Below, one piece after another: positions 2 through 23,380 of a stretch of DNA of 29,397 nucleotides. The DNA lies in IMG/VR virus record IMGVR_UViG_3300050025_000072, positions 1-29,397 of that record. The stretch is one strand, 5' to 3'. Below the pieces are notes generated by a model. It saw only the letters and a list, made by a program, of their open reading frames with translations, did no database searches and was not told where the DNA came from. Position numbers and translations under genes: made by a program. Within the stretch, counting starts at the first letter, position 1, and the number at the start of each line of letters is the position of its first letter. This stretch comes from a virus.

Positions 2-322
2 ATGGACCATCTAAGATATAGAATTTGGGCGTCTCTCAAGTTCAATAAAAAGGTGGGGTCAGTAACAAAAGAACTTGGTTGTTCGATTCAGGAGCTTAGA
101 CAACATCTCGAGGCCTTATTTTATCCAAATAGCGAAACTGGAGAGACTATGACATGGGGTAATTATGGAAAATGGCATGTAGACCATATCTATCCTTTGT
201 CCAAACTAAATCTCAAAGATCCGAAACAGTTCCAGATGGCCTGTCGTTATACAAACTTGCAACCGTTATGGGCGCACGATAATTTGGTTAAAGGCGCAAG
301 GGTGGAGGCGACTGATGAATAA
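2..322 (+). CDS. HNH homing endonuclease, C-terminal part (cut by window edge)
   Basis: This is the C-terminal 106 residues of a free-standing HNH endonuclease. The HNH core is visible as GKWHVDHIYPLSKLN followed by CRYTNLQPLWAHDN, giving the His-Asn-Asn metal-binding arrangement of HNH nucleases that nick or cut DNA. The protein aligns along its whole length with the C-terminal half of the complete HNH protein at 3127-3816, including the LGC...L...L...F.PN.ETGE.M stretch before the core. The Met at position 2 matches an internal position of that paralogue, so the true start lies upstream of the window. The stop overlaps the next gene by 8 bases. Such genes usually spread as homing elements between phage genes. 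The family is clear; the DNA target is not known. Confidence 0.85.
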   Translation: MDHLRYRIWASLKFNKKVGSVTKELGCSIQELRQHLEALFYPNSETGETMTWGNYGKWHVDHIYPLSKLNLKDPKQFQMACRYTNLQPLWAHDNLVKGARVEATDE

Positions 323-1100
323 AATCGCAATCATAAGAAGACTGCCGGGATCGGGGCGATATAGACTTTACAGCAAGAAAAAGGATAAGTCTGGGCGAAG
401 AAAAAATCTTGGAACCTTTGATTCTCTTTCGGCCGCCCAAAAACACGAGGGTCAGGTTCAGTTTTTTAAAGGCCAGGGAGCGGACGACCAATATGCTGAC
501 GACAAACACGGAAAGACCCTACACGACATAAGCCGCATAGCACAATATTTAGAGCGCGCAGGTTTTATAGCCCACGCAAAAGAGCTCTATGCCGTGATGG
601 ATTCGATTGATGGCAGCTTAGACGACAGCTGCGATGACATACCCGACGCCCAACTTAACCCCGAAAATATCAACCATACAGATGCGGTTTGGTCTGACAG
701 AGAGTATTCCCCAATCGATATGGCCGGCGTTGGGCAGTTTGGTCTTCCTGGGCCTGTTACCGTAGCTTTTTTACAGCAGCTAACCAAAACGGCCCATGAG
801 TTTGACTTAAAAGGACTAATCGAAGAAGCAGATGAACTGGACGAACTACTTGTCCAACTAACGAGAGAACACGAAGAGCAAGACAACATAGACTCCGTTG
901 TGGGCGCTAATGGTTTGGTTGGTTCAAGCGTTACAGACAATCAGAACTGTGGTTTGTTCCAGGGTATGAGTGATTCCTATTTCTACACCGGATATCAGCA
1001 ACAAGAGGGGGTGTTTGATCACGGACAAGACAAGAGCAGGAATAGTAATGTTGGTGGAGGTTATAATCGTGAAGAAACAGAAAGAAAACTTACCCTTTAA
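315..1100 (+). CDS. Unknown phage protein: basic N-terminal domain plus two helical-hairpin modules
   Basis: This 261-residue protein is not assigned to a named family. Residues 1-52 form a basic, beta-rich segment (IIRRLPGSGRYRLYS, then KNLGTFDS and Q.QFFK). It resembles a short domain I associate with many phage hypothetical proteins that reads as K-Y-R-v-y-S...KNLGT...A. Residues 69-100 and 151-185 each fit the helical-hairpin module that recurs through this window (L..iA..L...G....A...D). The C-terminal 70 residues are polar, rich in Gly, Asn and Gln, and probably disordered. A GGAGG lies just before the ATG at 315, which overlaps the stop of the HNH gene. It ends just before a promoter-like motif, so it closes the upstream transcription unit. 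A virion or assembly role is inferred from context only. Confidence 0.7.
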   Translation: MNKIAIIRRLPGSGRYRLYSKKKDKSGRRKNLGTFDSLSAAQKHEGQVQFFKGQGADDQYADDKHGKTLHDISRIAQYLERAGFIAHAKELYAVMDSIDGSLDDSCDDIPDAQLNPENINHTDAVWSDREYSPIDMAGVGQFGLPGPVTVAFLQQLTKTAHEFDLKGLIEEADELDELLVQLTREHEEQDNIDSVVGANGLVGSSVTDNQNCGLFQGMSDSYFYTGYQQQEGVFDHGQDKSRNSNVGGGYNREETERKLTL

Positions 1101-1106
1101 CAACCC

Positions 1107-1135
1107 AATCTACTAATAATCACATCTAAATATAG
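1107..1135 (+). promoter_or_regulatory. Bipartite promoter-like motif, copy 1
   Basis: AATCTACTAATA at 1107-1118 is followed after exactly 8 bases by TAAATATAG at 1127-1135. The same two blocks with the same spacing occur at 14980, 17854 and 19704, and with more divergence at 19008 and 26681. This copy lies between the stop at 1100 and the ATG at 1165, where a promoter for the next genes would be expected. The promoter role is inferred from position and recurrence. Confidence 0.6.
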
Positions 1136-1164
1136 ACGTAGTGTATTTTGTATCAGGGAGTGGT

Positions 1165-1755
1165 ATGTTCAAAGCATCTGATCTTGGCCCACGATTAACA
1201 GTTCAGATCTCGCCAGAAGAGAAGCAACTGGCCAAGAATGCCAAGATCGAGTTTAAGGCCGTGTTAAAGGAGCTCAAAGATGTTATTGGGACTATTCTGG
1301 ACCTGCGTGACTCTATAAACGACCAGCACCCCAGCAAAGAGGATCTGGACAACAAATACAAAGGCCGGCTGCTGAGATATAAACGCAAAATAGTCAAATC
1401 ATTCAACATCTTTCTGAAACATCTCCAAACGAATATGGGGAATCTGGCCAAAATAAATGACCCCGATATGATTAGACTTCGCGAGATCTTAGTAGCAGAA
1501 GTAAGCGAACTGACTGATGGAGTTGAGAAAGTGTTGGATTTGCTTGATGATGCCGGCAAGGATAACTTCACGCAGACACTTCAACAAATAACGGCACAAC
1601 TCGAAAAGCGCCAGGGATCAATAAACGACGCGATCGGCAACCAACTTTTCAATAAACTGGATCATGATTTGCTGGGCGTTATGAGAATCGGGCAACTTAA
1701 ATTCAACATACAGAAACGATCCAGGCTTATGCTGATGTTGGTCAAGGGGCAATAA
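1165..1755 (+). CDS. Unknown, predicted all-helical protein
   Basis: This 196-residue protein of unknown function is highly charged and apparently all-helical. Lys/Glu-rich stretches occur around residues 20-90 (KFKAVLKELKDVI-like heptads) and again around 110-160, compatible with coiled coils. The C-terminus is basic and hydrophobic (QKRSRLMLMLVKG). I chose ATG 1165 because GGGAG lies 4 bases upstream; an in-frame GTG at 1141 has no ribosome binding site. It is the first gene after promoter-like motif copy 1, and its TAA overlaps the next ATG by one base, so the two are probably translationally coupled. No signal peptide or clear membrane helix is seen. A structural or chaperone role is possible but unproven. 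Confidence 0.7.
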   Translation: MFKASDLGPRLTVQISPEEKQLAKNAKIEFKAVLKELKDVIGTILDLRDSINDQHPSKEDLDNKYKGRLLRYKRKIVKSFNIFLKHLQTNMGNLAKINDPDMIRLREILVAEVSELTDGVEKVLDLLDDAGKDNFTQTLQQITAQLEKRQGSINDAIGNQLFNKLDHDLLGVMRIGQLKFNIQKRSRLMLMLVKGQ

Positions 1756-1916
1756 TGGCGTTCGTAAAAGTTGGAGATGCTGAAAAGATCAACGCTTTCT
1801 TTGATGAGGATAAAGTAGTGATTTGCTCCAAGTGCGGCAAGATTCTGGATACACTTCAAATCTCCGCCGACCAAAATGCGCCTATTTGTACTTGCGAGAA
1901 AGATGACGAACAATAG
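1755..1916 (+). CDS. Small zinc-ribbon-like protein
   Basis: This 53-residue ORF starts at an ATG overlapping the preceding TAA by one base, and its end overlaps the start of the next gene. It carries CSKCGK at residues 24-29 and CTC at 45-47, a CxxC...CxC set that could bind one zinc ion as a small zinc ribbon. The rest is short and acidic. The tight overlap on both sides argues that it is a real, coupled gene. It has no obvious DNA-binding helix. A role in virion assembly or protein-protein contact is inferred only from position. Confidence 0.6.
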   Translation: MAFVKVGDAEKINAFFDEDKVVICSKCGKILDTLQISADQNAPICTCEKDDEQ

Positions 1917-2958
1917 ACAGGCAGCAAAAATCTATATGGGGCCGCAGAAAGTTGAGACCCCTAAAAGAGAAAAAGCGCCCGAAGTTATTAGCATTCCAGA
2001 GGGTAAGCGATATCCAAGAGACGTATATATAGCCAAGCCAAACAGTACAAAGATACGCGAAATGGCTGCCAAAGTATTAGAGTTGGTGAAGGATATACAT
2101 TTTGGTGATGATGCGCTAAAAGAGGCCGCGCGCAATGAACTGATTAGGCTTATTGTCGTTGAGGCGGGGGCAACAGTTAATAATGCAGAGTCTTTCGTGA
2201 CCAAAATACTACGAAGGGACATTGCGGATAGTGAAGGTAGTGGTGAGGTTAGATTTGTAGAGTTCTTGACGTCGGAACTTAATGATATGGTTTCGCACAT
2301 CCCAAGTACTCGATTTGATACACGAAAAGACAAGAGCGATGAAAGAGTTGGACCGGTAGCTATAAAGTATCCAAAAAGCCAAGATGATTCGCCGGCAGAG
2401 TTAGCTTTTATGTTCGCACCAAAATTCGTTGCTCTATCACAAAAGACTGGCGACGAATATAGAAACGCGCTAATAAACATCGTAAATGAAATGGCGTCGG
2501 CAACCGCTATATCACACGAATCGATCAGTAGGTTTGTAGATAAAATGCTCAAAGAAAAGGGAGAAATGGCAAGAAGGGGCATTCCATATTTTGAATCATT
2601 CCTGCTGAGCGCATTTCGTAGATTAATGAGATCACAGGAGCTTACAATGGCGTCTTTTCAACTAATCCAACTTACTAAACTGGCAGACCGATTAGATCAC
2701 GCCGGCAGAACACACCTGGCTAACTTGGTTGATGATGCGATTAAAGAGATCACTGCCGGCAAAGAGGAGACTGGCACTCAAGATTCAAGTGGCGCCAGTT
2801 CAGAAGAGGATTTTGGCGACGAACTTGATCGCCGTTCACTACGAGACATTCCAGATCCAGCGCAAGTAGAGTTTGATCAGTTGTATAAAGAGCTTGGAAG
2901 AGACCCTACTGATGAGGAATTGGCTGCATTTATGGGAGAAGAGGAAAGCCATGAGTAA
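1903..2958 (+). CDS. Unknown phage protein with one helical-hairpin module
   Basis: This 351-residue protein of unknown function starts at ATG 1903, with a GAGAA-type ribosome binding site just upstream inside the zinc-ribbon ORF; an in-frame ATG at 1876 has no such site. Residues 1-40 are basic and Pro-rich; the middle is helical and charged. Residues about 251-286 (LIQLTKLADRLD, then AGRTHLANLVDDAIKEI) are a clear copy of the helical-hairpin module. It is followed by an acidic linker and a C-terminal segment, LYKELGRDPTDEELAAFMG, which resembles a short helix pair found in sigma-70 region 3. No other sigma region is present, so it is not called a sigma factor. The stop overlaps the next start by 8 bases. 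A virion-assembly role is inferred. Confidence 0.7.
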   Translation: MTNNRQAAKIYMGPQKVETPKREKAPEVISIPEGKRYPRDVYIAKPNSTKIREMAAKVLELVKDIHFGDDALKEAARNELIRLIVVEAGATVNNAESFVTKILRRDIADSEGSGEVRFVEFLTSELNDMVSHIPSTRFDTRKDKSDERVGPVAIKYPKSQDDSPAELAFMFAPKFVALSQKTGDEYRNALINIVNEMASATAISHESISRFVDKMLKEKGEMARRGIPYFESFLLSAFRRLMRSQELTMASFQLIQLTKLADRLDHAGRTHLANLVDDAIKEITAGKEETGTQDSSGASSEEDFGDELDRRSLRDIPDPAQVEFDQLYKELGRDPTDEELAAFMGEEESHE

Positions 2959-3115
2959 CGCCAGCAACACTATTCAGTCTCTCGTGAAGTTGGCCGAGCT
3001 TTTAGAATCAAAGGGCCTATGCGAATATGCCAAACAAATCGAAGAAATAATCGAAGCAGTGGCAGAAGACAAGATGATACTTGACAACAGCGGCCAAGAA
3101 GAGAATAAGGAGTAA
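2951..3115 (+). CDS. Stand-alone helical-hairpin module protein
   Basis: This 54-residue protein consists almost entirely of one copy of the recurrent helical hairpin. Residues 8-40 read IQSLVKLAELLESKG, then LCEYAKQIEEIIEAVAED, with an acidic tail after it. It starts at ATG 2951, preceded by GAGGAA within the last codons of the upstream gene, and overlaps that gene by 8 bases. A gene that encodes only the module suggests that the hairpin folds and works by itself, perhaps by pairing with the same module in neighbouring proteins. That binding idea is inference. No other domain is visible. Confidence 0.65.
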   Translation: MSNASNTIQSLVKLAELLESKGLCEYAKQIEEIIEAVAEDKMILDNSGQEENKE

Positions 3116-3126
3116 TAGAATCTACA

Positions 3127-3816
3127 ATGTGTAATTCTACTAACAAAACATGTAAGCTATGCAAGCAAGAAAAATTGCTCGATGATTACTATGTTGACAG
3201 TAGGACCAGCAAGCATATGTCTACCTGCAAGGCCTGCTTAAAAGACAAACAAAAGGCATATTATGAGGAGAACAAAGCGAAATGCCTCGAATCGAGCAAG
3301 GAGTATGCCAAGAAACACATAAATGAAACAAGAGAGACAAAGCGTCGTTGGAAGAAGAACAACCCAGAATATGTCAAGGCGGAAAACGCAAAAAGGGCGC
3401 CTAAAATCAAAGCATGGCGACAGAAAAATAGGGTAAGGATTAATGAGAAAAATATTGCACGAAGAAAGAACGATGTTTGCTTTAAGATTCGATGTTATTT
3501 GCGCTCCAGGCTGTCAGCAGTAATTCGTGGCAACGTCAAGAATGGGTCGGCGATCAAAGACTTGGGATGCACTCTTGATGAACTTAAGACCTATTTACAG
3601 GAAAAATTCCAGCCCAACAGAGAAACTGGCGAGGAGATGACATTTGATAATTATGGCAAATGGCACATAGACCATATTATGCCGCTCTCTGCCTTTAACT
3701 TGACTGATCCCGAACAGCTTAAGAAAGCCTGCCACTATACGAATCTTCAGCCATTATGGGCCAAAGACAACATATCAAAGGGCGGGACTAACAGGAGAGA
3801 TTATGGCATTCACTAA
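3127..3816 (+). CDS. HNH homing endonuclease, complete
   Basis: This is a 229-residue free-standing HNH endonuclease. Residues 9-40 form a Cys-rich zinc finger (CKLCKQEK, then STCKACLKDKQ). A long, very basic helical stretch suited to DNA contact covers about residues 45-120. The HNH core is at about residues 173-217: NYGKWHIDHIMPLSAFNL and CHYTNLQPLWAKDN. The paralogue at 2-322 has the same core and the same pre-core segment. The nearest GGAG is about 14 bases before the ATG, longer than usual, so translation may be weak. Its 3' end overlaps the protease start by 14 bases and carries that gene's ribosome binding site. It is probably a homing insertion placed before the protease gene without disrupting it. 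Confidence 0.88.
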   Translation: MCNSTNKTCKLCKQEKLLDDYYVDSRTSKHMSTCKACLKDKQKAYYEENKAKCLESSKEYAKKHINETRETKRRWKKNNPEYVKAENAKRAPKIKAWRQKNRVRINEKNIARRKNDVCFKIRCYLRSRLSAVIRGNVKNGSAIKDLGCTLDELKTYLQEKFQPNRETGEEMTFDNYGKWHIDHIMPLSAFNLTDPEQLKKACHYTNLQPLWAKDNISKGGTNRRDYGIH

Positions 3817-6800
3817 GCTTGGAGAGTCTTTAGAGTTCAACCCTGCGCATGACATCCTGGCGGCCAAAGACGCGCTTGCTGACGTCGATATAGCCAAACG
3901 GTTCATCAAGCTGGCCAAGAATCTCAAGCGTATAGCTCCAAAAGCAAATGACTTTTTGTATTTCTCAGCAATCATGATGCATGCTGCCGAAGCTGCCCTG
4001 GTTGATCAAAAAACAGGAGAACCACTTAAGAACGTCAGGGGCGAAGCTGTGGATGGGCACTTTGAAGTCTTCATCAACAAGAAGGGCCAAGAATCGGTTC
4101 GTTGGCTTAGCGGAGATGGTATTAAACCCTATGCTAATGCCAATAAGGACATTTTTCCAGAAGACCATCTCATAGTAGCCCACAAGAAGTGGATAGGAAA
4201 AAGTTTGTGCAAAGATCACAAATCAGAATCAGTAGACGGCATTCGTGGCATTATTATCGATACTTACTACGATCACAAGTTCAAGCGACTTCATGCCTTG
4301 TGTGCTTTAGATCGTAAGAACTACGGCGATTTGGCTCGCAAGGTTGAAACAGGTTATGCCAACTGCGTTTCCATGGGTACAGCAGTAGGTCGTAGCATTT
4401 GCACTGAGTGTGGAAACATTGCCCTGACAGAACGAGATTACTGCCCGTGCATCAAAAACCGCACGCATTACGGGGAAATAAACTTAGATCTTAACCCGCT
4501 TGAGCTTAGTCTGGTCGTCAACGGTGCAGATGGTTTAGCCAAGGTCAAACAAATAATCGCGTCTATGAATGAGTACGTACAAACCAAGACAGCGCGTATA
4601 GAACAGCTTAAGTGCGATCGTTGCGTTAATCCGACTGAACTGCAACAACTGGCTGAGTCTATGGCCGATATGCAAAAACGATTGGGCGCTTTGATGGGCA
4701 CTACGCAAACTGTAACAAAACAGGCCGGCGAAATGGGTGAGCTGGCCAAGATGATCGCTACGCTGCAAGACCAACTCGAACTTGAAACTGATCCGAGCAA
4801 ACAGGCCGACTTAAAGAGCAAAATAGACTCGTTAATCGCCAAACTAAATCCAACAAATGAAACCACCACACAGCCTTCACGGGCAACAGTGGGTGGCGGC
4901 GAGGGTTATTCGGCACAAAACCCCGAAACAAGCTTGCCGACTCCGAGCTGGGCTTTTGGTCCGGATCAGAGGTTCGCTTCAAATTCTAATGTTACTGGAG
5001 ACGAAAATCAGGGTGCAACCAAAGAAATTCGTCTCCTTCGATCCAAGGTAGAGAGTATGATGAAATCGTTTGAAGAACTAAAAGCAAACATCCACAAGGA
5101 GGATACTATGAATTCTGCTAGAATCAAAGCTCGCGCAAAGGCTCGTAGGGCGTATTGGATGGGTGGTGAGGGTCTTAATGATCCAAAGAACCTCCCGTAC
5201 CCAAAGGAAGACTCGGACAAGATCCGTGACAAAGAGGACAAGCAAATGGTAGGCGAACCGCTAGAGACTGGATCAGAAGGCTTGCACCCTGGCGATAAAG
5301 AGACACTGACTGAGGTAAATCGTGACGGCCTCAATCTTAGCAAAGCCCAACTTGAGGAGCGTAGCATGCGTCGTCGTGCTTACTTCCAGGGCGGTGGCGG
5401 TCTTAATGAGCCAACACCAGGTGCAATCAAGTATCCCAAAGAGAACGGCGATGGCATTCGTAACGAGGGCGATCGGCAAATGGAAGACATCAAAGATATG
5501 GGTGGCACGGACGGTATGGTTCCTGGCGACAAAGAAATAAAGGAGAAACTACTCCGCGCTAAACTTAAAGCCAAATTCACGAAGTCAGCGTCAAAGGCCG
5601 ACTCGAAGTGGGAAGTTTATGCTGATGACAAGCTCATTCTTACGGCTTCAATCAAGGAAGCTTTTGAGGATGACAAGACCATCGACGAGAATTGGGAGTA
5701 TGCCAGTTCCGCTCAGTATGGTAAAGATGTCATGGCAGAGATCCGAAGCAAAGGTCTCGATAAAGTTGCGTACTTGCTCAAGGGTGCAGAGGGTGAAGTT
5801 CCTGCTCCAGCACCAGTAGCTCCAGACGCGGGTGGTCCTGTTTCTGCTCCTGTTCCTGATGCGGCTCCAGCACCGGCACCAGATGCTAAGCCGGAAGAGC
5901 CCAAGAAAGATGACATGAGCGATAAGGTTAATGCCGCTCTCAGTGCTATGGAAGAGAAGATCAGTGAAATCCGTGACCTTCTTGGCGGCGGAAAAGGTAA
6001 AGAGTCAGGTTTGGCCGAGTTAGACGTTAGCACAGACGCACCAATGGACAAGGTATTGGCGTCCGTTGAAGATTTGCTTGATGACGCGGCTGACGAGTTG
6101 GCTTTGATCAGCGAAGCATTTGACGGCAAGTTGGACGAGGCTGCTAAGGCTAAGGCTATCAAGTTGGCCGGTCAGGCTCTTGAAGATTCACAGGCTATTA
6201 TCTCCGAAGCAAATCAGGCCATTGAGTCGGCCAAAAAGTGCTGCGGTAGCGTTTCGGCAGTAGAGGGGACAATTCAGGCTCGCGCAAATAAACGTGCTGC
6301 TTTGCTCGCTAAGGCAATGGAAGAGATGGCGGCAGAGGCACCAGTAGTTTCACAGCCGGCCAAAGACAAAGATGGCGACAAAGATGAAGTTGCCAAGCTC
6401 AAAGAAGAGATTAAAGAACTCAAAGAAGAGCTGAAAGAATGCAAGAAGGGCGAGGAAGATGTCGTTGAGGTAGAGGAAGAGGAAGCCGAGAAGGAAGATG
6501 ACGGCAAAGATGGTCAGTGCGCTCATGGGCCGGAAACTACTTGCGACTATTGCATGCCGGCAGTTGATATGGCCAATACAGTAACGGTTAAGCCTGGTGA
6601 TAAGGTTGAGGTAAAAGCAGCAAAGAGGACCCGTGAAGAGATTATTGCCCAGGCCGAAGCTATCCTCGGCAAATATCAGCTCACGTTAGACAAGGCACAG
6701 ACCGTTACAGAGCCTACTTTTACCCAGGCTCATCCAAAGGGCGGAACAGTTACAGAGCTAACCGGCACCAAGACTCCAGAAGCAAAAGTTGAGACCATTG

Positions 6801-7345
6801 CAGAGCAGCATGAAGTGATTGAAGAGATCGCTTTGTCTGGCCCGCGCAATGTTCGTGAAGCCGCTGCCATACTTAACGAGAAGATTGTAGAAGGCAAGAT
6901 CAAAGTAGAAGATCTTGACCGGCTCGTTGCGGAAGGCAAAGCTGATGCGGAGTGCGTTGCCTACTTTAAGAAGTTCTGGGCACAAGCTCCTGGCACTGGC
7001 TCTTTTGGGGCAGATCTAAGCAAGGATTTTGATGGCGCAAAGAAGAAGGCCTCGGTTGATGAAGTCAAGGCCAAGTACCGCCGCGCCTATGATGTTGGTC
7101 TCGTTGCGCAGGAGAAGGGCTTTATCAATGCTAACCGTGAAGCTCTAAACTCCTATGTGGACGAAATCATGAAGTTTGATGACGCTGCATTTGAGTCAAA
7201 CCGCAGGGTAATGGCCGGATACAAGACCAAGAAAGGTGGTCTCCCCGTGATTACCGCTGGGGCCGATAGTGCAGATCTAAGCTCCTCAGTCAATGAGCAA
7301 CCAGAAAGTGCGGCTGACCAACTTAGCGTTTTGTGGCGTAAGTAA
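3803..7345 (+). CDS. Prohead protease fused to a long scaffold-like region
   Basis: This 1180-residue protein combines two assembly functions. Residues about 85-250 resemble T4 gp21-like prohead proteases of the herpesvirus assemblin fold. The likely catalytic His139 lies in CKDHKS, and the likely nucleophile Ser190 in NCVSMG. The segment NPLELSLVVNGAD at 231-243 matches the usual end of this domain. Inserted just after Ser190 is a Cys set (C200, C203, C214, C216) that could bind zinc. Downstream come helical, acidic regions, two copies of a RRAY..GG.GLN.P repeat, an Ala/Pro linker near residues 665-705 and a Lys/Glu coiled coil near 865-905, all typical of scaffold or core proteins. A GGAGAG precedes ATG 3803. 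Such proteases mature the capsid and degrade the scaffold. A terminator follows at 7376. Confidence 0.8.
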   Translation: MAFTKLGESLEFNPAHDILAAKDALADVDIAKRFIKLAKNLKRIAPKANDFLYFSAIMMHAAEAALVDQKTGEPLKNVRGEAVDGHFEVFINKKGQESVRWLSGDGIKPYANANKDIFPEDHLIVAHKKWIGKSLCKDHKSESVDGIRGIIIDTYYDHKFKRLHALCALDRKNYGDLARKVETGYANCVSMGTAVGRSICTECGNIALTERDYCPCIKNRTHYGEINLDLNPLELSLVVNGADGLAKVKQIIASMNEYVQTKTARIEQLKCDRCVNPTELQQLAESMADMQKRLGALMGTTQTVTKQAGEMGELAKMIATLQDQLELETDPSKQADLKSKIDSLIAKLNPTNETTTQPSRATVGGGEGYSAQNPETSLPTPSWAFGPDQRFASNSNVTGDENQGATKEIRLLRSKVESMMKSFEELKANIHKEDTMNSARIKARAKARRAYWMGGEGLNDPKNLPYPKEDSDKIRDKEDKQMVGEPLETGSEGLHPGDKETLTEVNRDGLNLSKAQLEERSMRRRAYFQGGGGLNEPTPGAIKYPKENGDGIRNEGDRQMEDIKDMGGTDGMVPGDKEIKEKLLRAKLKAKFTKSASKADSKWEVYADDKLILTASIKEAFEDDKTIDENWEYASSAQYGKDVMAEIRSKGLDKVAYLLKGAEGEVPAPAPVAPDAGGPVSAPVPDAAPAPAPDAKPEEPKKDDMSDKVNAALSAMEEKISEIRDLLGGGKGKESGLAELDVSTDAPMDKVLASVEDLLDDAADELALISEAFDGKLDEAAKAKAIKLAGQALEDSQAIISEANQAIESAKKCCGSVSAVEGTIQARANKRAALLAKAMEEMAAEAPVVSQPAKDKDGDKDEVAKLKEEIKELKEELKECKKGEEDVVEVEEEEAEKEDDGKDGQCAHGPETTCDYCMPAVDMANTVTVKPGDKVEVKAAKRTREEIIAQAEAILGKYQLTLDKAQTVTEPTFTQAHPKGGTVTELTGTKTPEAKVETIAEQHEVIEEIALSGPRNVREAAAILNEKIVEGKIKVEDLDRLVAEGKADAECVAYFKKFWAQAPGTGSFGADLSKDFDGAKKKASVDEVKAKYRRAYDVGLVAQEKGFINANREALNSYVDEIMKFDDAAFESNRRVMAGYKTKKGGLPVITAGADSADLSSSVNEQPESAADQLSVLWRK
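5108..7345 (+). CDS. Nested in-frame scaffold start inside the protease gene
   Basis: A perfect AAGGAGG at 5096-5102 lies 5 bases before an in-frame ATG at 5108, codon 436 of the protease-scaffold gene. Translation from here would give a 745-residue scaffold without the protease domain. The start falls between a low-complexity linker and the RRAY..GG.GLN repeats, which is where a domain boundary would be expected. Lambda C/Nu3 and herpesvirus UL26/UL26.5 use the same nested arrangement to make more scaffold than protease. The ribosome binding site and frame are seen directly; use of the start is inferred. Confidence 0.6.
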   Translation: MNSARIKARAKARRAYWMGGEGLNDPKNLPYPKEDSDKIRDKEDKQMVGEPLETGSEGLHPGDKETLTEVNRDGLNLSKAQLEERSMRRRAYFQGGGGLNEPTPGAIKYPKENGDGIRNEGDRQMEDIKDMGGTDGMVPGDKEIKEKLLRAKLKAKFTKSASKADSKWEVYADDKLILTASIKEAFEDDKTIDENWEYASSAQYGKDVMAEIRSKGLDKVAYLLKGAEGEVPAPAPVAPDAGGPVSAPVPDAAPAPAPDAKPEEPKKDDMSDKVNAALSAMEEKISEIRDLLGGGKGKESGLAELDVSTDAPMDKVLASVEDLLDDAADELALISEAFDGKLDEAAKAKAIKLAGQALEDSQAIISEANQAIESAKKCCGSVSAVEGTIQARANKRAALLAKAMEEMAAEAPVVSQPAKDKDGDKDEVAKLKEEIKELKEELKECKKGEEDVVEVEEEEAEKEDDGKDGQCAHGPETTCDYCMPAVDMANTVTVKPGDKVEVKAAKRTREEIIAQAEAILGKYQLTLDKAQTVTEPTFTQAHPKGGTVTELTGTKTPEAKVETIAEQHEVIEEIALSGPRNVREAAAILNEKIVEGKIKVEDLDRLVAEGKADAECVAYFKKFWAQAPGTGSFGADLSKDFDGAKKKASVDEVKAKYRRAYDVGLVAQEKGFINANREALNSYVDEIMKFDDAAFESNRRVMAGYKTKKGGLPVITAGADSADLSSSVNEQPESAADQLSVLWRK
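5144..5536 (+). repeat. Tandem protein repeat in the scaffold region (two units)
   Basis: Unit 1 (5144-5302) and unit 2 (5372-5536) encode the same pattern: RRAY-x2-GG-x-GLN[D/E]P, then YPKE..D.IR...D.QM, then G...G..PGDKE. Each unit is 53-55 residues, with a charged spacer between them. A shorter echo, KYRRAYDVG, occurs near 7075. The DNA is diverged but the residue pattern is clear, so the repeat is an old duplication kept for function. Confidence 0.7.
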
Positions 7346-7375
7346 ATAGTGCGTTAAACCCAGCAGAATTCAGGT

Positions 7376-7409
7376 GGGGGAGCGGGTCTAAACCATCCGC
7401 TCCCTTCCT
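7376..7409 (+). terminator. Hairpin terminator after the protease-scaffold gene
   Basis: GGGAGCGG at 7378-7385 pairs perfectly with CCGCTCCC at 7397-7404 around an 11-base loop, and two G-U pairs can extend the stem. The tail is TTCCTCCTT, pyrimidine-rich but without a clean run of T, so termination may be partial. It lies 30 bases after the stop at 7345. Confidence 0.6.
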
Positions 7410-7424
7410 CCTTAAAGAGATCAT

Positions 7425-7574
7425 ATGAACACCAGAATAGTTCGAGACCTTGAGCTGAGACTGGAAATGCAAGAGCTAAGAGAGCTGGGTTTGAATGATG
7501 ATGATTTGGATGGATTTTTAGATCTGTATTATGAAGAGTGGGGGCTTGATGACGTTGAGGCATTCAATAACTAA
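7425..7574 (+). CDS. Small acidic helical protein
   Basis: This 49-residue ORF starts at ATG 7425 with AAAGAGA just upstream, directly after the terminator hairpin. The product is acidic, with an N-terminal amphipathic helix (residues 5-22, LELRLEMQELRELG-like) and a C-terminal Asp/Glu-rich part containing Tyr and Trp. It overlaps the next gene's start by 26 bases. I do not recognise it. Its size and position fit a small regulator or an assembly accessory factor, but neither is shown. Confidence 0.45.
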   Translation: MNTRIVRDLELRLEMQELRELGLNDDDLDGFLDLYYEEWGLDDVEAFNN

Positions 7575-8211
7575 ACGGGCTGATGCCGATATTTGGCAGT
7601 TGGATCCCAAGATTAATGCTCTTGGTCCGATAGTGAATAAGTATTTGGCCCTGCTGCACTCTAATCAAGTCGTCAGGGATCGTGCTTGCGCCGAGTTGGA
7701 CCACTTGTTTGAAAGCAATCCAAAGGTTTTCTTCGAGCAGGGGTTTGACCAGGTAGAGGATCGTTTCTTCTCCGCTAACACGAAAAGGCCTCGATTTAGT
7801 AACTGGGCGCATAAAGCTGCTGAGAGTCTGGCTAAAAAAGATCCCATGACCTATCTAAAATGGGGGCTCTATTTTGATGAGCGCTTCTATGATATATTGG
7901 GAACTCTATACATTTCGATACGTATTCGAATTGCCCCGACTGGTAAAGAGCTAAAAGAAAAGGTCCCAAACTTATTCCCGCAAATACTCGAGGTTGTCGA
8001 TTTGCTGTCCCAAAAGAATCCCGGCTTCTTCATTCGTCATTTGGCCGATGATCCCGAATACGCTAAGTTTTTTCCAAATGTAGGCGTTAAGGCCGAAGCA
8101 ATTTACACGCTAACCAAAATAGCGAACCAACTCGATCAAGACCATAAGTTTGACGCGGCTAACAGAGTAGACGCGATAATACAGAAAATAGGAGAAGGCA
8201 ATGGAACATAA
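7549..8211 (+). CDS. Unknown protein with C-terminal helical-hairpin module
   Basis: This 220-residue protein starts most likely at ATG 7549, with a G-rich GTGGGGG stretch upstream. An in-frame ATG at 7531 has no ribosome binding site. The body is helical with aromatic-rich patches (WAHKAAESL, TYLKWGLYFDERFYD) and is not assigned to a family. Residues about 183-217 form a copy of the recurrent module: YTLTKIANQLDQDHKFDAAN, then RVDAIIQKIGEG. The end overlaps the next start by 11 bases, which implies coupled translation. Its placement between scaffold and capsid genes suggests a head or internal virion protein. Confidence 0.65.
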   Translation: MTLRHSITKRADADIWQLDPKINALGPIVNKYLALLHSNQVVRDRACAELDHLFESNPKVFFEQGFDQVEDRFFSANTKRPRFSNWAHKAAESLAKKDPMTYLKWGLYFDERFYDILGTLYISIRIRIAPTGKELKEKVPNLFPQILEVVDLLSQKNPGFFIRHLADDPEYAKFFPNVGVKAEAIYTLTKIANQLDQDHKFDAANRVDAIIQKIGEGNGT

Positions 8212-8698
8212 CAAGAACAGCTTCTATAACGAACTAACGAAAAATCTAAAACAATGGGAGAAGACAGCAAGTTCTCCGGAGGTATCTGCTACAAATGCGC
8301 CCGAAACCCAAACGGCCAAAGAAAAGACCCAAACGCCACAGACAGTTCAAGTGGCGGAAGTTCTTAGAGAGCTGGTTAAGATTGCCCAAGAACTCGACAA
8401 TAACGGCTCCACGAAAGCTGCTGATTTAGTCGATGCTACGATTAAAAAGATGGCTGGAGACCTTGATGACGAGCTGGCCGAAGAAGAGACTGATCCAACT
8501 TTTACCGGCACAGAAGAGGGCACGGGAACAAGATCGAGGAAGGATCCACTGTACGAAAAAGAGTATGAAGGGGCCCCAGAAGGATTGGCTCCCGAAGACC
8601 ATGGCGAGCAAGGGCCTTTTAACGACGATAGGATAGATGCTTTACTTGCCGACCCCACTACACGAGACTACTTGAAGCGCAAACTACAGGGACTCTAA
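8201..8698 (+). CDS. Unknown acidic protein with central helical-hairpin module
   Basis: This 165-residue protein has three parts. The N-terminal 20 residues form an amphipathic helix (SFYNELTKNLKQWEKTA). A Thr/Gln/Pro-rich linker covers about 22-50. A strong copy of the recurrent hairpin covers 51-87: LRELVKIAQELDNNG, then STKAADLVDATIKKMAG. The rest is acidic and probably disordered, ending in a short helix (IDALLADPTTRDYLKRKLQ). GGAGAAGG lies just before ATG 8201, inside the end of the upstream gene. The role is not known; the layout fits a tagged internal head protein. Confidence 0.65.
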   Translation: MEHNKNSFYNELTKNLKQWEKTASSPEVSATNAPETQTAKEKTQTPQTVQVAEVLRELVKIAQELDNNGSTKAADLVDATIKKMAGDLDDELAEEETDPTFTGTEEGTGTRSRKDPLYEKEYEGAPEGLAPEDHGEQGPFNDDRIDALLADPTTRDYLKRKLQGL

Positions 8699-8713
8699 CA
8701 GGAGAGGTGTGCC

Positions 8714-9403
8714 ATTTTAAGAATAATACAAGCCGGAAATAGCCTCCCCGTAAGCTATGCCGTAGATTCGACTGCCGTTTTTCTTCCCGGCATGATAGGA
8801 CAACTCAAGGTTATAGGCAACGAAGTAGTTTGCGGAACATCAGATGGTACTGCGCCTGTCGGGATACTGGATGACGTTAATGCTACGGCTTTTACTGCCA
8901 ACTCAATAGATGAGGTGGTGGATATAACCGTAGTGGGTGTTCATACTGTTGACGGTTATGTTTCGGCCGCAGAAGCAATGCAAACCCTGGACTTCTCAAA
9001 TGTGGTGCGCAGTAGCTTTGTTTCTAATATAGAAGGCCTTACCCTAATAGACACGAATGGAGTACTTGTTGCGCCGGCAGGAACTCCATTGAACTACGAT
9101 AGAGATGGCGACGGAATACCTGATACCATAAGAGCAGTAGTGAGCTATGTTTATCGCATAGCCAATATACCCGGAGATTCGAGTATATTGGGGAGTGGCC
9201 GCGTAACGTTATGGTTTCAAAGAGGCATTTTTGAAACTGATCAATTTGACACAACCCAGCGGTATGTGGTCAATACTACCCTGTTTGTAAATGCAGAGGG
9301 CAAGCTAACATCTAAGCAAACTGGACCCGGCTATCCTGGAATTGCGTTGTGTACGGGCCCGGCGACAACACTAAATGGAATTATGGAATTCTTGTGGTAC
9401 TAA
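8714..9403 (+). CDS. Decoration-like virion protein, probable ATT start
   Basis: This 229-residue beta-rich protein has a layout similar to the paralogous pair at 15078 and 15908. All three open with a Leu/Ile-rich strand, then Q-x-G, then a conserved G-M-I-G about 25 residues in, and carry a GSG[KR]VT.W strand later. From the in-frame stop of the previous gene (8696-8698) to 8792 there is no in-frame ATG, GTG or TTG. ATT at 8714 has GGAGAGG at 8701-8707 with 6-base spacing, and starting there aligns the N-terminus with its relatives. Starting at ATG 8792 would remove the first strand. Function as a capsid decoration or head fibre protein is inferred from resemblance and neighbourhood. The C-terminus LNGIMEFLWY looks like a buried strand. 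Confidence 0.7.
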   Translation: MLRIIQAGNSLPVSYAVDSTAVFLPGMIGQLKVIGNEVVCGTSDGTAPVGILDDVNATAFTANSIDEVVDITVVGVHTVDGYVSAAEAMQTLDFSNVVRSSFVSNIEGLTLIDTNGVLVAPAGTPLNYDRDGDGIPDTIRAVVSYVYRIANIPGDSSILGSGRVTLWFQRGIFETDQFDTTQRYVVNTTLFVNAEGKLTSKQTGPGYPGIALCTGPATTLNGIMEFLWY

Positions 9404-9404
9404 A

Positions 9405-9415
9405 AATCTACTAAT
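9405..9415 (+). promoter_or_regulatory. Partial copy of the intergenic motif
   Basis: AATCTACTAAT follows the stop at 9403 directly and matches the first block of the bipartite motif, but the final A is C. A TATATG at 9424-9429 could stand for the second block. It overlaps the ATG at 9427, so a transcript starting downstream would lose the ribosome binding site. This copy may be decayed, or the motif may act partly at RNA level. Confidence 0.3.
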
Positions 9416-9426
9416 CGGAGCTGTAT

Positions 9427-9876
9427 ATGAGTATTGTGAATGGATTGCTGGCGAACAAGTCTTTCATCATTGAGTCGTTGCTTGCTTTTGTGGAGGAGGA
9501 GCGGCATAGGATTGTGGGGGCTGGGCTGGTAAAACAAGAGAGCTGCGACCGATTCTTGGGCGGCTTTTTGAAGAAGTTGGCCGGCGATACAAACAGCGAC
9601 GAAATGGTCTCAAAGCTCACTGCTCTTTATGAATCGATGCAGAACGTACAGCTTCACGGCGATCGATTCTTTGAGGAAGAGGCTAAAATGCCTACCAACA
9701 CAGTAAATACCACAGTGTCCATCACGCCGGCAACAGAAGAAGTAAGAGTCGATAAAGCGGCCCTGTTTTTGGAGAGCAGGTTAGAGAAGTTGGCATACTC
9801 TTTGGGCAGCACAGGTAATCACGCAATGGCCTATGAAGTTGAAAAGGTCATACAGAATATAAAACGAGGAGAATAA
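9427..9876 (+). CDS. Unknown protein with C-terminal helical-hairpin module
   Basis: This 149-residue protein starts at ATG 9427 with GGAG 6 bases upstream. The N-terminal 80 residues are helical (LLANKSFIIESLLAFVEEE). A Thr/Val-rich linker (NTVNTTVSITPATEE) leads into residues 110-149, a variant of the recurrent module: LFLESRLEKLAYSLGSTG, then NHAMAYEVEKVIQNI. Only 2 bases separate its stop from the next ATG, and GAGGAG in its last codons serves that gene. No family is recognised. The same order of helical body, disordered linker and hairpin is seen in other genes of this cluster. Confidence 0.65.
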   Translation: MSIVNGLLANKSFIIESLLAFVEEERHRIVGAGLVKQESCDRFLGGFLKKLAGDTNSDEMVSKLTALYESMQNVQLHGDRFFEEEAKMPTNTVNTTVSITPATEEVRVDKAALFLESRLEKLAYSLGSTGNHAMAYEVEKVIQNIKRGE

Positions 9877-9878
9877 CA

Positions 9879-11126
9879 ATGAAACACATAGGCTTTGATG
9901 AATCGTCCGTACTACAAGAGTTCGCCCGTATTGCTGTCGACAAGGGAATGGTCAAGATGGCAGAGGCTACTGGTGATGGCGCTCAGTATTTTGTTGAGTT
10001 TGCGGCCCAAATACGCAAGATCGTTGGCGGTGGTGTTGCCGAACGATATGCCGGCAGTTTTGAGAGTTTGGCCAAGCAAACCCCCCAGATTCCACTCAAA
10101 GACGCTATGTTTAAGGCTAATGAGGTGTCCAAGTCTCAAGGTGGTGGATATGTTGCTGCCAAAGCTGCTGCGGATGCGAAGTTCAATGCTAAACTCGTGG
10201 CTTCTACTTCTGCTGATCTAACCAAAGAGGGCGCTGGTGAGAAATGCTATGATGTCAGCGGCGAAACTGGTGAGAAGCTTGTGGATTCAGCTCACCCCGA
10301 CGGCAGCCCCGAAGTCACAGTTCCTAACACGAAAGAAGTAGTTGAGACAATAGTAGATCAACAAAAGGCAGATATAGCGGTGGTTGAGAAGAAACCCCAC
10401 GGTAAGTACGCCGCATTGGTTATTTTGGCCGACGAACTGGATGCTATGGGACTACACAAACACGCCGAAAAGATTGATGGGATGCTGAAGAAGTTGGCAG
10501 TGGGTGGATGGAATGATCCATATCCGCAGGCACCCGCCGCCCCCGATACCAAAATGCCTGATTTTAATCCGGCCAACCCAACTGATCAAAGCATACCGGA
10601 ACCAGCTTTGCCAGCGCAACCTACGACACCAACTACCGAACAGAGCAAGAATAATCAGGTTCGCAAGGGATTGGACCCGAAAACAGTTGCTTTATTCAAG
10701 GCACTATACAATCGATATGCTGATCTTTTGGCGCAAGCAAACAAGCAATCACGAACAGACCAACAGAATCATCAAATGGGTAAAACGTGGCCCGATTTTA
10801 ACACGCTATGGAAACAGTTTGGCGGAATTGATGGCATGAAGAAAAGTGTATTAGAGGTTCAGCATCAAACCCAACAAGTTACGCCGTCAAAGGGTATTGG
10901 TTTTGACCCGGATTTACTGGCTGAGGTAAGGAAGCGCCTTCGTGGTATAGGTGCTCAACCAACACAGCAGGAATTGTTTTTGATGGGCGAAAACGTAAGA
11001 AACATATCGCAATCCATTCCCCCTGGTCCTGCGCGCGATAAGGCGGTTAATGAGTTGGTTGCGGCCTTTGAAAACAAGGCTCCAGCAGCACCATACGCAC
11101 CATCAGAACCAGCAATCAAATTTTAG
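9879..11126 (+). CDS. Unknown virion-type protein with internal helical-hairpin module
   Basis: This 415-residue protein starts at ATG 9879 after GAGGAG. Its N-terminus (FDESSVLQEFARIA) resembles the N-termini of the genes at 11143 and 13064. Residues about 20-110 are Ala/Gly/Lys-rich and helical. The recurrent hairpin is at about residues 176-209: YAALVILADELDAMG, then LHKHAEKIDGMLKKLAVG. A long Pro/Thr/Gln-rich disordered linker follows (about 212-260), then a helical C-terminal domain with ALYNRYADLLAQANKQ and LLAEVRKRLRGIG. I cannot name a family. The modular build and its place in a cluster of helical genes fit a head-internal or ejected protein, but this is inference. Confidence 0.65.
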   Translation: MKHIGFDESSVLQEFARIAVDKGMVKMAEATGDGAQYFVEFAAQIRKIVGGGVAERYAGSFESLAKQTPQIPLKDAMFKANEVSKSQGGGYVAAKAAADAKFNAKLVASTSADLTKEGAGEKCYDVSGETGEKLVDSAHPDGSPEVTVPNTKEVVETIVDQQKADIAVVEKKPHGKYAALVILADELDAMGLHKHAEKIDGMLKKLAVGGWNDPYPQAPAAPDTKMPDFNPANPTDQSIPEPALPAQPTTPTTEQSKNNQVRKGLDPKTVALFKALYNRYADLLAQANKQSRTDQQNHQMGKTWPDFNTLWKQFGGIDGMKKSVLEVQHQTQQVTPSKGIGFDPDLLAEVRKRLRGIGAQPTQQELFLMGENVRNISQSIPPGPARDKAVNELVAAFENKAPAAPYAPSEPAIKF

Positions 11127-11142
11127 GGCATAGGGGAGCGGC

Positions 11143-13062
11143 GTGATCAATCAAAACGAAATACTAACCAACTATGCATCCCTGATCAAAGAAGCTGCCG
11201 ATTGGGAAGACGTACTTAAAGCGCTTGGCCTTGACTCCTTGATTGGGGCCGGAATAGGTGCTGGTGGTGCGGCTATAACTGGTGGCGGTATAGGCTCTGG
11301 CATTCTTACTGGACTGACTGGAGTAGGAGTAGGTGTCGGCGCTGCTACTGGTGTTCTGGAGGCGGCTGGTATTCTGGCCGCTGTGGGTGCTGCTGCCTAT
11401 ACAATCTACTCCGTACTGCAACATACCGATGACAACTTGGATGACTTGGTTGATAGACTTGATGCTTTGGATCCGAACGAAAAGGTAAAGACGCAGCTGG
11501 ACGGATTTATAGCGGCATTCAAGGATCTGCAAGAACGTAAGGCTTTCGACCCTATTACTTATTCAACAGACTCCAAGATTAAAGCCCAGCAAATGGCCCA
11601 GCAAATAAACGTCCTGCAATACTTCTACGACAAGTTAGAGGAGTTGTTTAAGTCCTGGCCGCAAATAAAGATTAATCTGACTGATTGGGGATTCGACCCT
11701 GATCACGCCGAAACTGCCATCGCAAAGACTTGTGGCGCAACCAGACAACAAATCGCAGGCATCAAAAATACAATACGAGAAGAGGCCGAAAAAGCCATCA
11801 AATCTCCGCAAGCTAACCAGAGGATCACTATGCTAAATCGAGACGAGTTAATGTGCAGATACGCAGATATTATGAAGAACAGTGGATTCCTTGGTGTAGA
11901 TTGGGACGGTCTTGTTTCCGATAGTCTTACTCTATTGGGGCTGCTAACGCCGGGGGTTCAGTTGGGTGTTGCTTATTACCTTACGACACGAACTAAATCT
12001 GCGCTGAATGAGCTATATCGCGCCATTAGTACTCTGGATCCGATAGATGACGGAGCAAAAACAGAGCAAACAAAGTGGAAAACTAACATACAGAACTTTA
12101 ACGGCATACTTTCGGACAACCCACCGATGCAGGCTGACGCAAAAAGTCAGGCTATTTGGTCTGCGCAGCGAGTTCAATCTACCGGGCCAATCTTGTCGTT
12201 TCTTGGCGAACTAAAAAGAGACTTTGCTGCCGCCCAAGATCGTTTTAGAGGGTTGGGAAAAGACACTGCCACTGCCGAAATAGATAAAGCAATAGCGGCC
12301 GTTCAGAAAGCGCTAACCGACGCTAAAACCAAAGCCACCGCAGACTCACAAGGTATGGCAACTCAAATCAAAGATAAGGGAACCGATATACTTGCCCTGA
12401 CCAAAGAAATAGCCGGTCTTGATGCTCAACTTGTTTCTGTTTACGGCCAGGATAAAGTTGTCTATACCGACGCAGAAAAACAAATGATTGACTTCGTGCG
12501 CCAAGTAGCAGCTCACCCAGATCAACTCGGAGATCCTGCGCAACTCGAACAATATGCCGGCGCCCTACAATCCTTCAAAGTAGTGGTTCAACAGGCGCTC
12601 TCAAAGGCCAAAGCAAAGCGCAGCAGCCTCAGGTTGATTTCTAAACGCGCCCTTCTAAAAACACCAGGCGGGACTTTTAGAATGAACTTGCCCGGACAAC
12701 AAGAACAGGCCAAAGAAGATCGCGCGGCCTGGAAGAATCAAAACGTCGGAATCATACAGCACGGCATCAACTACATGAACAAGGCATTCCAAACCGGAGC
12801 ACCACCCATTGAATATGACCTGGTGTATGGTAATGAAACCTGTACCGCTCTGCTGGCCTTTATAAACGCTTGGAAGGGTCCAATATCGGATAAACTTGTC
12901 GATACACTGGACGACGTAGGGCTATCCACAGAGGATCTAAAAGACGCAAAGAAACTCTACGCCAACCCGCAAGCTTTTCCCGCTATTGCCAACCTATTTA
13001 GCGCTTGGGTTGCTGAGATTAAAAAGGGACACCAAGGCCAGCAAGAGACACAAGGAGAATAG
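11143..13062 (+). CDS. Large internal or ejection-type protein with hydrophobic Gly-rich segment and internal duplication
   Basis: This 639-residue protein starts at GTG 11143 with GGGGAG 5 bases upstream. Residues about 30-92 form a long Gly/Ala/Ile-rich hydrophobic stretch (IGAGIGAGGAAITGGGIGSG and onward) able to insert in a membrane. A second hydrophobic stretch lies near 250-268. The N-terminal half and residues from 230 on share a layout: M[I/L]N..E[I/L]...YA...K, a hydrophobic stretch, then L..L...LDP and a charged helix, suggesting duplication and fusion. In-frame ATG 11830 (codon 230) has an AGAGGA just upstream and may be a second start. The C-terminal third is helical and ends in a Gln-rich tail. 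Such features fit phage proteins ejected to cross the cell envelope; this role is inferred. Confidence 0.6.
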   Translation: MINQNEILTNYASLIKEAADWEDVLKALGLDSLIGAGIGAGGAAITGGGIGSGILTGLTGVGVGVGAATGVLEAAGILAAVGAAAYTIYSVLQHTDDNLDDLVDRLDALDPNEKVKTQLDGFIAAFKDLQERKAFDPITYSTDSKIKAQQMAQQINVLQYFYDKLEELFKSWPQIKINLTDWGFDPDHAETAIAKTCGATRQQIAGIKNTIREEAEKAIKSPQANQRITMLNRDELMCRYADIMKNSGFLGVDWDGLVSDSLTLLGLLTPGVQLGVAYYLTTRTKSALNELYRAISTLDPIDDGAKTEQTKWKTNIQNFNGILSDNPPMQADAKSQAIWSAQRVQSTGPILSFLGELKRDFAAAQDRFRGLGKDTATAEIDKAIAAVQKALTDAKTKATADSQGMATQIKDKGTDILALTKEIAGLDAQLVSVYGQDKVVYTDAEKQMIDFVRQVAAHPDQLGDPAQLEQYAGALQSFKVVVQQALSKAKAKRSSLRLISKRALLKTPGGTFRMNLPGQQEQAKEDRAAWKNQNVGIIQHGINYMNKAFQTGAPPIEYDLVYGNETCTALLAFINAWKGPISDKLVDTLDDVGLSTEDLKDAKKLYANPQAFPAIANLFSAWVAEIKKGHQGQQETQGE

Positions 13063-13063
13063 C

Positions 13064-13444
13064 ATGAACATATTTGACAACTCAGAAGTAATGAACGAAT
13101 TCTACAAAATCGCCTACACCGAAAGCCCAAAAGAAATAGAAGATAAGGTTTTGGTAGTGGATGAGGACTTGATCGAACAAGCCCACCCAGAGCCAGTTTA
13201 TGTTGCTGAGGCTTTGGGCGATGGAGCACTTGTAGAAAACCAGAATGAACAGGCCAAGAAGGACCACGACATAATCAACAAGATGCCTACTGGTTTGCTG
13301 ATACACAACTATGCTTCATGCTTCAATGACCTAATCAAACTGGCCGAAGAGTGTGAGGCTGCCGGCGATCTTGAATCTGCTTCGTTGGTTGCTGAGTTGG
13401 CTCGAGGTATTACAAACAACCTCCCTTTCGTCTCGGCTCCTTAG
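13064..13444 (+). CDS. Small protein with C-terminal helical-hairpin module
   Basis: This 126-residue protein starts at ATG 13064 with GGAG in the preceding gene's last codons. Its N-terminus (IFDNSEVMNEFYKIAYTE) resembles those of the genes at 9879 and 11143. A polar acidic middle leads to residues 86-120, a copy of the recurrent module: FNDLIKLAEECEAAGDLE, then SASLVAELARGI. Its stop is 50 bases before the next likely start. No family is recognised. Both end motifs are shared with neighbours while the middle is unique, so it may be an adaptor or minor internal protein. Confidence 0.65.
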   Translation: MNIFDNSEVMNEFYKIAYTESPKEIEDKVLVVDEDLIEQAHPEPVYVAEALGDGALVENQNEQAKKDHDIINKMPTGLLIHNYASCFNDLIKLAEECEAAGDLESASLVAELARGITNNLPFVSAP

Positions 13445-15077: not shown

Positions 15078-15809
15078 ATGGCATTATTTTTGCTACAACC
15101 AGGTATTCAGCCGCTTGGACAGTTTGACGTACTAAACACCGACGCTTCTACTATCGTTGGCGGCATGATCGGTACGTGGAGTGTTGCCTCACTTACTGAC
15201 ACTTCGACAGAGACCGCCGACGCTGATGTATTCGACGGCTACACTTCACCTTATATTTCTGAATCGGCAGGTCCAGGCAATCCAGGAACTACAACTGGCA
15301 ACACTACAGGCTATCGTCCCGTAATTCGCATCGCCAGCAACACGACTCTTGATGAGAACAAGGCAATGTATCTTATGGATGAAGGAACAGCCAACTACGG
15401 CACTTTGTTCGGCTCAATCATCGGCATGTACAATCCGAGCGGTACAGTGGTCGGTCCAAACACAATGACAGGTTCCGGCAAGGTAACGATTTGGGATAAA
15501 CCCGGTATGTTCGCCGTTTCATTTGAGGCTTGCTACTCAAATAAGAACGTAACTAACGGTGCCCTTGAAGCCGGCCAAGATACCCCACTTCCAGGCGACC
15601 TTCTCTATCGTCACGTAGCAGATGGGAAGATTTGTCGTTTGGCCACTGCAACAGACAACGGTGGTACGGCTGCTAACAACAAGATCGCTACTTACGTAGA
15701 ACACGCTTCTAAGGGTGCTCTCGTAAACACACCTGCTAAGCTTGTAGGTGCGACTGAGGTGTTTGATCGTATCGTAATCAACTACTTCGGCTTTAGCAAA
15801 AATATGTAA
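15078..15809 (+). CDS. Decoration-like virion protein, paralogue A
   Basis: This 243-residue beta-rich protein starts at ATG 15078 behind GGAGG. It is a close tandem paralogue of the next gene and more distantly resembles the 8714 product. Shared blocks are the N-terminal LQ.GI.PLGQFDVLNTDAST, a GSGKVT.WDKPG strand, an EAGQDTPLPGD loop and the C-terminal LVGATEV.DRIV.NYFG. No helix-rich capsid fold or catalytic motif is visible. Placement immediately before the capsid gene, with its own terminator, suggests an abundant virion protein, most likely a capsid decoration or head fibre component. That assignment is inference; it could also be a minor head protein of another kind. Confidence 0.65.
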   Translation: MALFLLQPGIQPLGQFDVLNTDASTIVGGMIGTWSVASLTDTSTETADADVFDGYTSPYISESAGPGNPGTTTGNTTGYRPVIRIASNTTLDENKAMYLMDEGTANYGTLFGSIIGMYNPSGTVVGPNTMTGSGKVTIWDKPGMFAVSFEACYSNKNVTNGALEAGQDTPLPGDLLYRHVADGKICRLATATDNGGTAANNKIATYVEHASKGALVNTPAKLVGATEVFDRIVINYFGFSKNM

Positions 15810-16676: not shown

Positions 16677-16737
16677 TCGTTGAGCAGAACCAGTTGGCAA
16701 AGTCCAACGAAAGACAAACAAACACCGCTTAGTGCGG
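16674..16737 (+). promoter_or_regulatory. Structured leader of the capsid gene
   Basis: Between the terminator and the capsid start, CTTTCGTTG at 16674-16682 pairs perfectly with CAACGAAAG at 16705-16713. A competing pairing of GTTGG (16693-16697) with CCAAC (16704-16708) uses part of the same arm, so two alternative folds are possible. A second small hairpin, CCGC-TTAGT-GCGG (16725-16737), sits 8 bases before the GGAGG. The leader could control capsid translation, stabilise the mRNA or be a processing site; none is shown. Confidence 0.45.
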
Positions 16738-16758
16738 AATCAAATGGAGGATATTTTT

Positions 16759-23354: not shown

Positions 23355-23380
23355 AAGTGCCTGATATCATTGAGGTTTTG

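Follow-up and report, generated by a model that had tools for sequence, protein, structure and literature searches.

The capsid targeting sequence (CTS) of phage T4 is 10-20 residues long, lies at the N terminus and is removed by gp21 (PMC3012670, PMC5694885); it is the sole feature common to the T4 internal proteins, which are diverse defence proteins (PMC3012670). In phage P1, about 30 N-terminal residues of DarB are enough to bring a reporter into the head, and the Dar proteins, which have a link to antirestriction, share no common consensus (PMC9024508). The head propeptides of SPN3US and phiKZ are mostly 111-254 residues long, are cleaved and are shared at most by paralogues; for the long N-terminal ones a role in prohead targeting has been proposed (PMC10052503, PMC5694885). 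The choice of proteins for giant-phage heads is an open question, with long propeptides and little shared sequence reported in the papers cited here, and a recognisable portable tag would turn it into a sequence search.

The stretch of DNA analysed here (the window) is a complete virus record of 29,397 bases, which is all of the genome that the record holds. An earlier note on this DNA had claimed that one helical-hairpin module recurs nine times in eight otherwise different genes. All nine copies were located, each within a few bases of the site given for it, and the anatomy described was borne out: there are eight carrier genes, the gene at 315 has two copies and the gene at 2951 is the module almost alone. 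The genes placed at 1903 and 7549 are ORFs that reach further upstream (to 1876 and 7531), and either start is possible. The carriers are as follows.

315 to 1100, plus strand: carrier gene whose product has a beta-beta-beta-alpha domain at its N terminus and two modules
1876 to 2958, plus strand: carrier gene; the ORF opens at 1876, and 1903 is an internal ATG
2951 to 3115, plus strand: gene of 54 residues with little beyond the module (residues 8-39)
7531 to 8211, plus strand: carrier gene with a C-terminal module; the ORF opens at 7531, upstream of 7549
8201 to 8698, plus strand: carrier gene whose module adjoins a charged low-complexity stretch
9427 to 9876, plus strand: carrier gene; its positional counterparts in relatives combine a linker that varies with a C-terminal module that is conserved
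9879 to 11126, plus strand: carrier gene with an AHP box followed by the module
13064 to 13444, plus strand: carrier gene with an AHP box followed by the module

Once the module is masked, these eight carriers form seven groups, since the AHP box (described below) unites 9879 with 13064. The consensus of the 32-residue module is L4-x-K6-x-A8-x2-L11-D12-x2-G15-x4-A20-x3-D24-x2-I27. Each copy was scored with a leave-one-out profile, in which the other eight copies formed the training set and the control was 1000 shuffles of the host protein.

522 to 614, plus strand: module copy 1 (HDISRIAQYLERAGFIAHAKELYAVMDSIDG), the weakest at 5.9 bits, a score that one of the 1000 shuffles surpassed
771 to 866, plus strand: module copy 2 (LQQLTKTAHEFDLKGLIEEADELDELLVQLTR), 15.2 bits
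2662 to 2757, plus strand: module copy 3, 22.1 bits
2972 to 3067, plus strand: module copy 4, 24.3 bits
8101 to 8196, plus strand: module copy 5, 14.9 bits
8363 to 8458, plus strand: module copy 6, 30.4 bits, nearest to the family consensus
9769 to 9867, plus strand: module copy 7, 7.4 bits, a small margin above all 1000 shuffles
10407 to 10502, plus strand: module copy 8, 14.6 bits
13322 to 13417, plus strand: module copy 9, 8.0 bits, a small margin above all 1000 shuffles

The profile built from the copies, which was the check proposed at the outset, separated them from shuffled sequence: eight of the nine outscored all 1000 shuffles of their own protein. Run on all 32 ORFs of the window, the full profile gave 40-48 bits for the nine copies, which are its training set, and at most -0.9 for the rest. 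Searches of Pfam and PHROGs with the module matched no family, in agreement with the earlier note, which knew of no named one.

Relatives of the window were collected through its major capsid protein (MCP):

16732 to 17760, plus strand: major capsid protein (phrog_2522, 7.6e-80)

In IMG/VR, relatives of this protein are encoded by about 290 stretches, of which 80, at 68-87% identity, were kept. An iterated model run over 84 loci found 119 copies of the module that scored at least 15 bits, against none in the reversed versions of the same proteins. Whole-record searches revealed the module in 18 of 24 records, and not in phage G, Rctr197k or Tunturi_5; G014 and G019 also gave no module match, so the family is absent from some relatives. 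A scan for N-terminal tags added further contigs, among them G024, which has no MCP match and yet ends right at the gene usually found before the MCP. Across twelve related contigs, 106 proteins carry between them 114 copies with scores of at least 15 bits. The module could in principle be a set of generic amphipathic helical hairpins that converged, with neither a common origin nor a common partner, since the motif is short, its mean column identity is 42% and the weakest window copies lie near noise in the leave-one-out scores. This is highly improbable, and already disfavoured by three controls: the reversed proteins of the twelve contigs gave no copy at 8 bits or more against 141 in the real ones, the 497 kb of phage G gave no match, and the N-terminal tags keep 64% mean column identity across unrelated proteins. 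The module is a real, large and portable family, and its carriers come from a large, uncultured group of giant phages in which otherwise unrelated proteins share one hairpin. None of the cultured phages in the searched collection was found to have the module, and scans of bacterial and archaeal genomes with the tag and with the MCP gave no relative, so no host is suggested. An aquatic jumbo lineage (Arch Virol 2025) was considered as the same lineage, and identity with it was not established.

We then analysed where the module sits and what it is attached to. Forty-four of the 114 copies start within the first six residues of the protein (4.9 expected) and 17 end no more than seven residues from the C terminus (6.5 expected); the rest are internal (38) or near the N terminus. 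In the N-terminal tags the conserved stretch begins at residue 2 and ends at about residue 31, and comparison of these tags showed neither a conserved residue nor a conserved cleavage site after them. When the module was masked, 132 carriers separated into 83 unrelated clusters, of which 71 had a single member. One and the same body may be tagged in one protein and untagged in another: DUF5591 proteins bear the tag in G023, bear it marginally in G011 and lack it inside a larger protein of G026, and a conserved family of 160-370 residues has it in eight contigs and lacks it in G026, in which the adjoining gene begins with a tag. Recognised bodies on carriers include an ArdC-N antirestriction domain (24.1 bits, Pfam cut-off 22.6; the module match on this carrier is weak, 9.3 bits), DUF5591 (31.1 bits, cut-off 26) and Cupin_2 (53.3 bits, cut-off 27.2), with LysM just under its Pfam cut-off and GYF_2 under its own; the majority of carriers have no recognisable function. 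In our own reading, made without profile support, several carriers contain HExxH motifs, and the tagged protein at 155144-155653 of G026 continues, by eye, into a hydrophobic lipoprotein-like segment. Two identifications made by inspection, a kinase at G022 39725-40723 and a RelE-like protein at G002 201726-202124, were dropped after unsupportive PDB and NCBIfam searches.

AlphaFold2 (AF2) modelling of the 13064 product placed helices at residues 76-100 and 103-118, with pLDDT of about 90-98 in blocks over residues 81-120, mostly 56-79 elsewhere, and pTM 0.41. From these values the hairpin is well predicted and the AHP box is not, and we are confident in the prediction that the module is a helical hairpin; the two-module protein 315 was modelled at low confidence (mean pLDDT 50). 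A PDB fold search with the 13064 model returned only generic hairpins, none at E of 0.001 or less. The predicted helix-turn-helix has the length of about 34 residues that a TPR would have, the spacing of L4, A8, L11, G15 and A20 resembles a single TPR motif, and designed repeat/TPR proteins rank first in a PDB profile search, as weak single-repeat matches (E 0.012-0.028). This raised the possibility that the module is a general TPR-like protein-protein interaction hairpin, used for oligomerising or binding and with no part in head sorting, as would also suit the internal copies, the proteins with two or three copies and the few genes that consist almost wholly of the module (2951, G022 36857-36991 and L012 16668-16799). 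However, no Pfam TPR model matched the module at E of 0.05 or less, and an address tag better accounts for the strong preference for either end of the protein and for the large number of unrelated bodies; we regard the TPR-like reading as unlikely.

In ten contigs all 82 carriers lie on the MCP strand and 5' of the MCP, with 507 ORFs lying 3' of it, although direction over long distances means little if the genomes are circular. Outside these ten contigs there are exceptions: L012 has a module ORF of 43 residues 3' of the MCP, L064 has one on the minus strand, and G024 has carriers on both strands. The block in G005 reads terminase large subunit (1.3e-57), portal (2.8e-58), protease-scaffold and MCP, with carriers in between, and in the window and its freshwater-type relatives the carriers likewise sit inside the terminase-portal-scaffold-MCP block. 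Marine relatives have additional tandem arrays of short, diverse tagged genes, some of them about 100 kb away from the head block. The earlier claim that all carriers lie among head-region genes therefore holds for the window and fails for the family as a whole, because the marine arrays lie so far off.

The block of the window contains, downstream of the first carriers:

3803 to 7345, plus strand: prohead protease-scaffold fusion of 1180 residues (phrog_18299 head maturation protease, 3.9e-10)
5108 to 7345, plus strand: predicted nested scaffold, from an in-frame ATG after AAGGAGGATACT, conserved in complete relatives

The scaffold that the earlier note placed at 5108-7345 is the 3' part of the single ORF 3803-7345, and 5108 is a conserved in-frame internal start. 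The AHP box links this scaffold to two carriers. It spans about 50 residues with the pattern ETGxxLVxxAHP...GGLVENxxEQ...P-T/S-G, and in 9879 and 13064 it lies shortly before the module.

10254 to 10406, plus strand: AHP box in the 9879 gene, directly upstream of module copy 8
13160 to 13294, plus strand: AHP box in the 13064 gene, x-AHP-x...GxGALVENxxEQ...KMPTG
6692 to 6850, plus strand: AHP box form inside the scaffold part of 3803-7345

In relatives the AHP box recurs, at times without the module, and G002 187842-189464 connects the carrier and scaffold forms (E about 1e-7). Within the box, [L/K]VE is only a candidate for a cleavage site. These observations also bear on another possibility, a localisation tag that leads to the membrane or a cell pole, to a replication compartment, or to a chaperone or protease of the phage. 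Such a destination would fit the marine tandem arrays of small tagged proteins distant from the head genes and the lipoprotein-like segment seen by eye in the tagged G026 protein, but not the position of the window and freshwater-type carriers inside the head block, nor the AHP box common to two carriers and the protease-scaffold, and we consider it quite unlikely.

The short element shared by diverse bodies, its terminal position, the head-gene context and at least one antirestriction-like body together make a transferable capsid-loading tag the most likely reading of the module, with a probability of roughly 0.6. The tandem arrays of tagged genes, which resemble the T4 internal proteins, also favour it. 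We infer from the gene context and the shared AHP box that docking would be to the scaffold core: during head assembly the hairpin would dock into a core built from the 3803-7345 protease-scaffold and the nested 5108-7345 scaffold, and docking would enclose the tagged proteins, which would in this way enter the head. Proteins of the 9427, 9879 and 13064 types would be enclosed as core or structural parts, some other tagged proteins, for example the ArdC-N-like carrier, would be cargo exiting with the DNA, and the AHP box would mark the most conserved core parts. The capsid-loading reading is weakened by the arrays some 100 kb off, the lack of an adjoining cleavage site and the weak module of the ArdC-N carrier. 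It is weakened too by the scaffold, in which no significant module was found (best -0.7 bits), by the MCP arm, which has no profile match, and by the absence of a recognisable function in most carriers; the half-tag that we had seen by eye in the N-terminal arm of the MCP (DALxQIVKYASI) was rejected at a profile-profile comparison probability of 0.3%. Of the docking tag first suggested, what stood is a real, portable and unnamed hairpin family, whose terminal placement, varied cargo and head-block site are as a sorting tag predicts; entry into the head stays at the strength given above. It is an even bet that one folded 32-residue hairpin serves as an import code loading about 5-20 proteins per contig, antirestriction and other host-takeover proteins among them, so that the injected proteins of a phage that has no isolate could be listed from sequence alone. 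If true, the label could predict the proteins that such phages bring into their hosts, giving candidate lists, counter-defence included, for phages never cultured, and a compact tag for packing selected proteins into phage heads would suggest itself.

Like the CTS of the T4 internal proteins and Alt, the module is one short sequence found on varied proteins, anti-restriction included (132 carriers in 83 clusters), and it shares with T4 a head block with a prohead protease and sets of small, diverse tagged proteins. Unlike the CTS, it has about 32 residues, is predicted to fold as a hairpin, may be N-terminal (44 copies), C-terminal (17) or internal, and in the comparison of N-terminal tags showed no adjoining conserved cleavage site of the kind found in T4 propeptides; by length, position or demonstrated cleavage it is not the T4 CTS. 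The P1 DarB signal is comparable in its length of about 30 residues at the N terminus and in its link to antirestriction; the module differs from the Dar signals in being a single recognisable element, present on as many as about 20 proteins of one contig. SPN3US and phiKZ are likewise giant phages with a prohead protease, whereas their propeptides are longer than the 32-residue module, which occurs on unrelated proteins. Judged by the MCP, the closest relative in culture is Bacillus phage G, whose gp27 is 54% identical and whose gp19 matches the protease part of 3803-7345 (4e-22); it differs in that its 497 kb genome gave no module match, and the first 50 or so residues are missing from its MCP.

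Lambda C/Nu3 and herpesvirus UL26/UL26.5 are nested protease-scaffold genes, and 3803-7345 resembles them in its conserved in-frame ATG, from which a product with the scaffold alone would start; we know of no counterpart of the tag system in either. P22-type scaffolds bind coat through a C-terminal helix-turn-helix, and our literature search gave no supporting paper for a comparison with the P22 scaffold. Untagged upstream genes have a general excess of [KR]xA close to the N terminus, 10.7% where 6.9% would be expected, which is too weak to use. One further gene is conserved directly 5' of the MCP in relatives, and its product is possibly a decoration protein:

15078 to 15809, plus strand: conserved protein directly 5' of the MCP in relatives, with a paralogue at 15908-16627

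The prohead protease-scaffold fusion gene (3803-7345, + strand) contains an internal, in-frame ATG at 5108, preceded by AAGGAGGATACT. In all complete relatives examined, the gene likewise has a homologous start inside it, served by a strong ribosome-binding site. Together, these starts suggest that a scaffold gene is nested within the protease-scaffold gene, as it is in lambda C/Nu3. Within the scaffold part, at about 5126-5560, lie two direct repeats, beginning RRAYWMGGEGLNDP and RRAYFQGGGGLNEP and both ending in PGDKE.

Immediately 5' of the major capsid protein gene (16732-17760, + strand) are two paralogues in tandem (15078-15809 and 15908-16627), a gene type that is mostly single-copy in the relatives. 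By-eye reading revealed an HNH-like C-terminal sequence common to ORFs 2-322 and 3127-3816, and a homing endonuclease-like ORF at 23357-24535; these three ORFs are likely mobile elements amid the structural genes. In the related IMG/VR phage contig G005, a gene (74861-83017) located between portal and protease-scaffold codes for a 2718-aa protein matching ATP-dependent DNA ligase phrog_114 (1.1e-22), a putative activity that is unusual for a head block.

Two further short sequences accompany the hairpin tag. An RIxKLAELMSREFT-like stretch recurs at the C terminus of several tagged proteins, and MKKIAADRNY, a recurrent N-terminal sequence, may be another tag: it turns up in the gene arrays that also carry the hairpin, in one case fused as a hybrid to the hairpin's first helix.

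Loci with the two sequences in related contigs
RIxKLAELMSREFT-like, C-terminal:
G012 191855-192412
G012 192427-193380
G011 32229-33158
G022 33283-34053
MKKIAADRNY-type:
G026 161007-161237
G023 104712-105116
G011 1508-1867
G026 156259-156624
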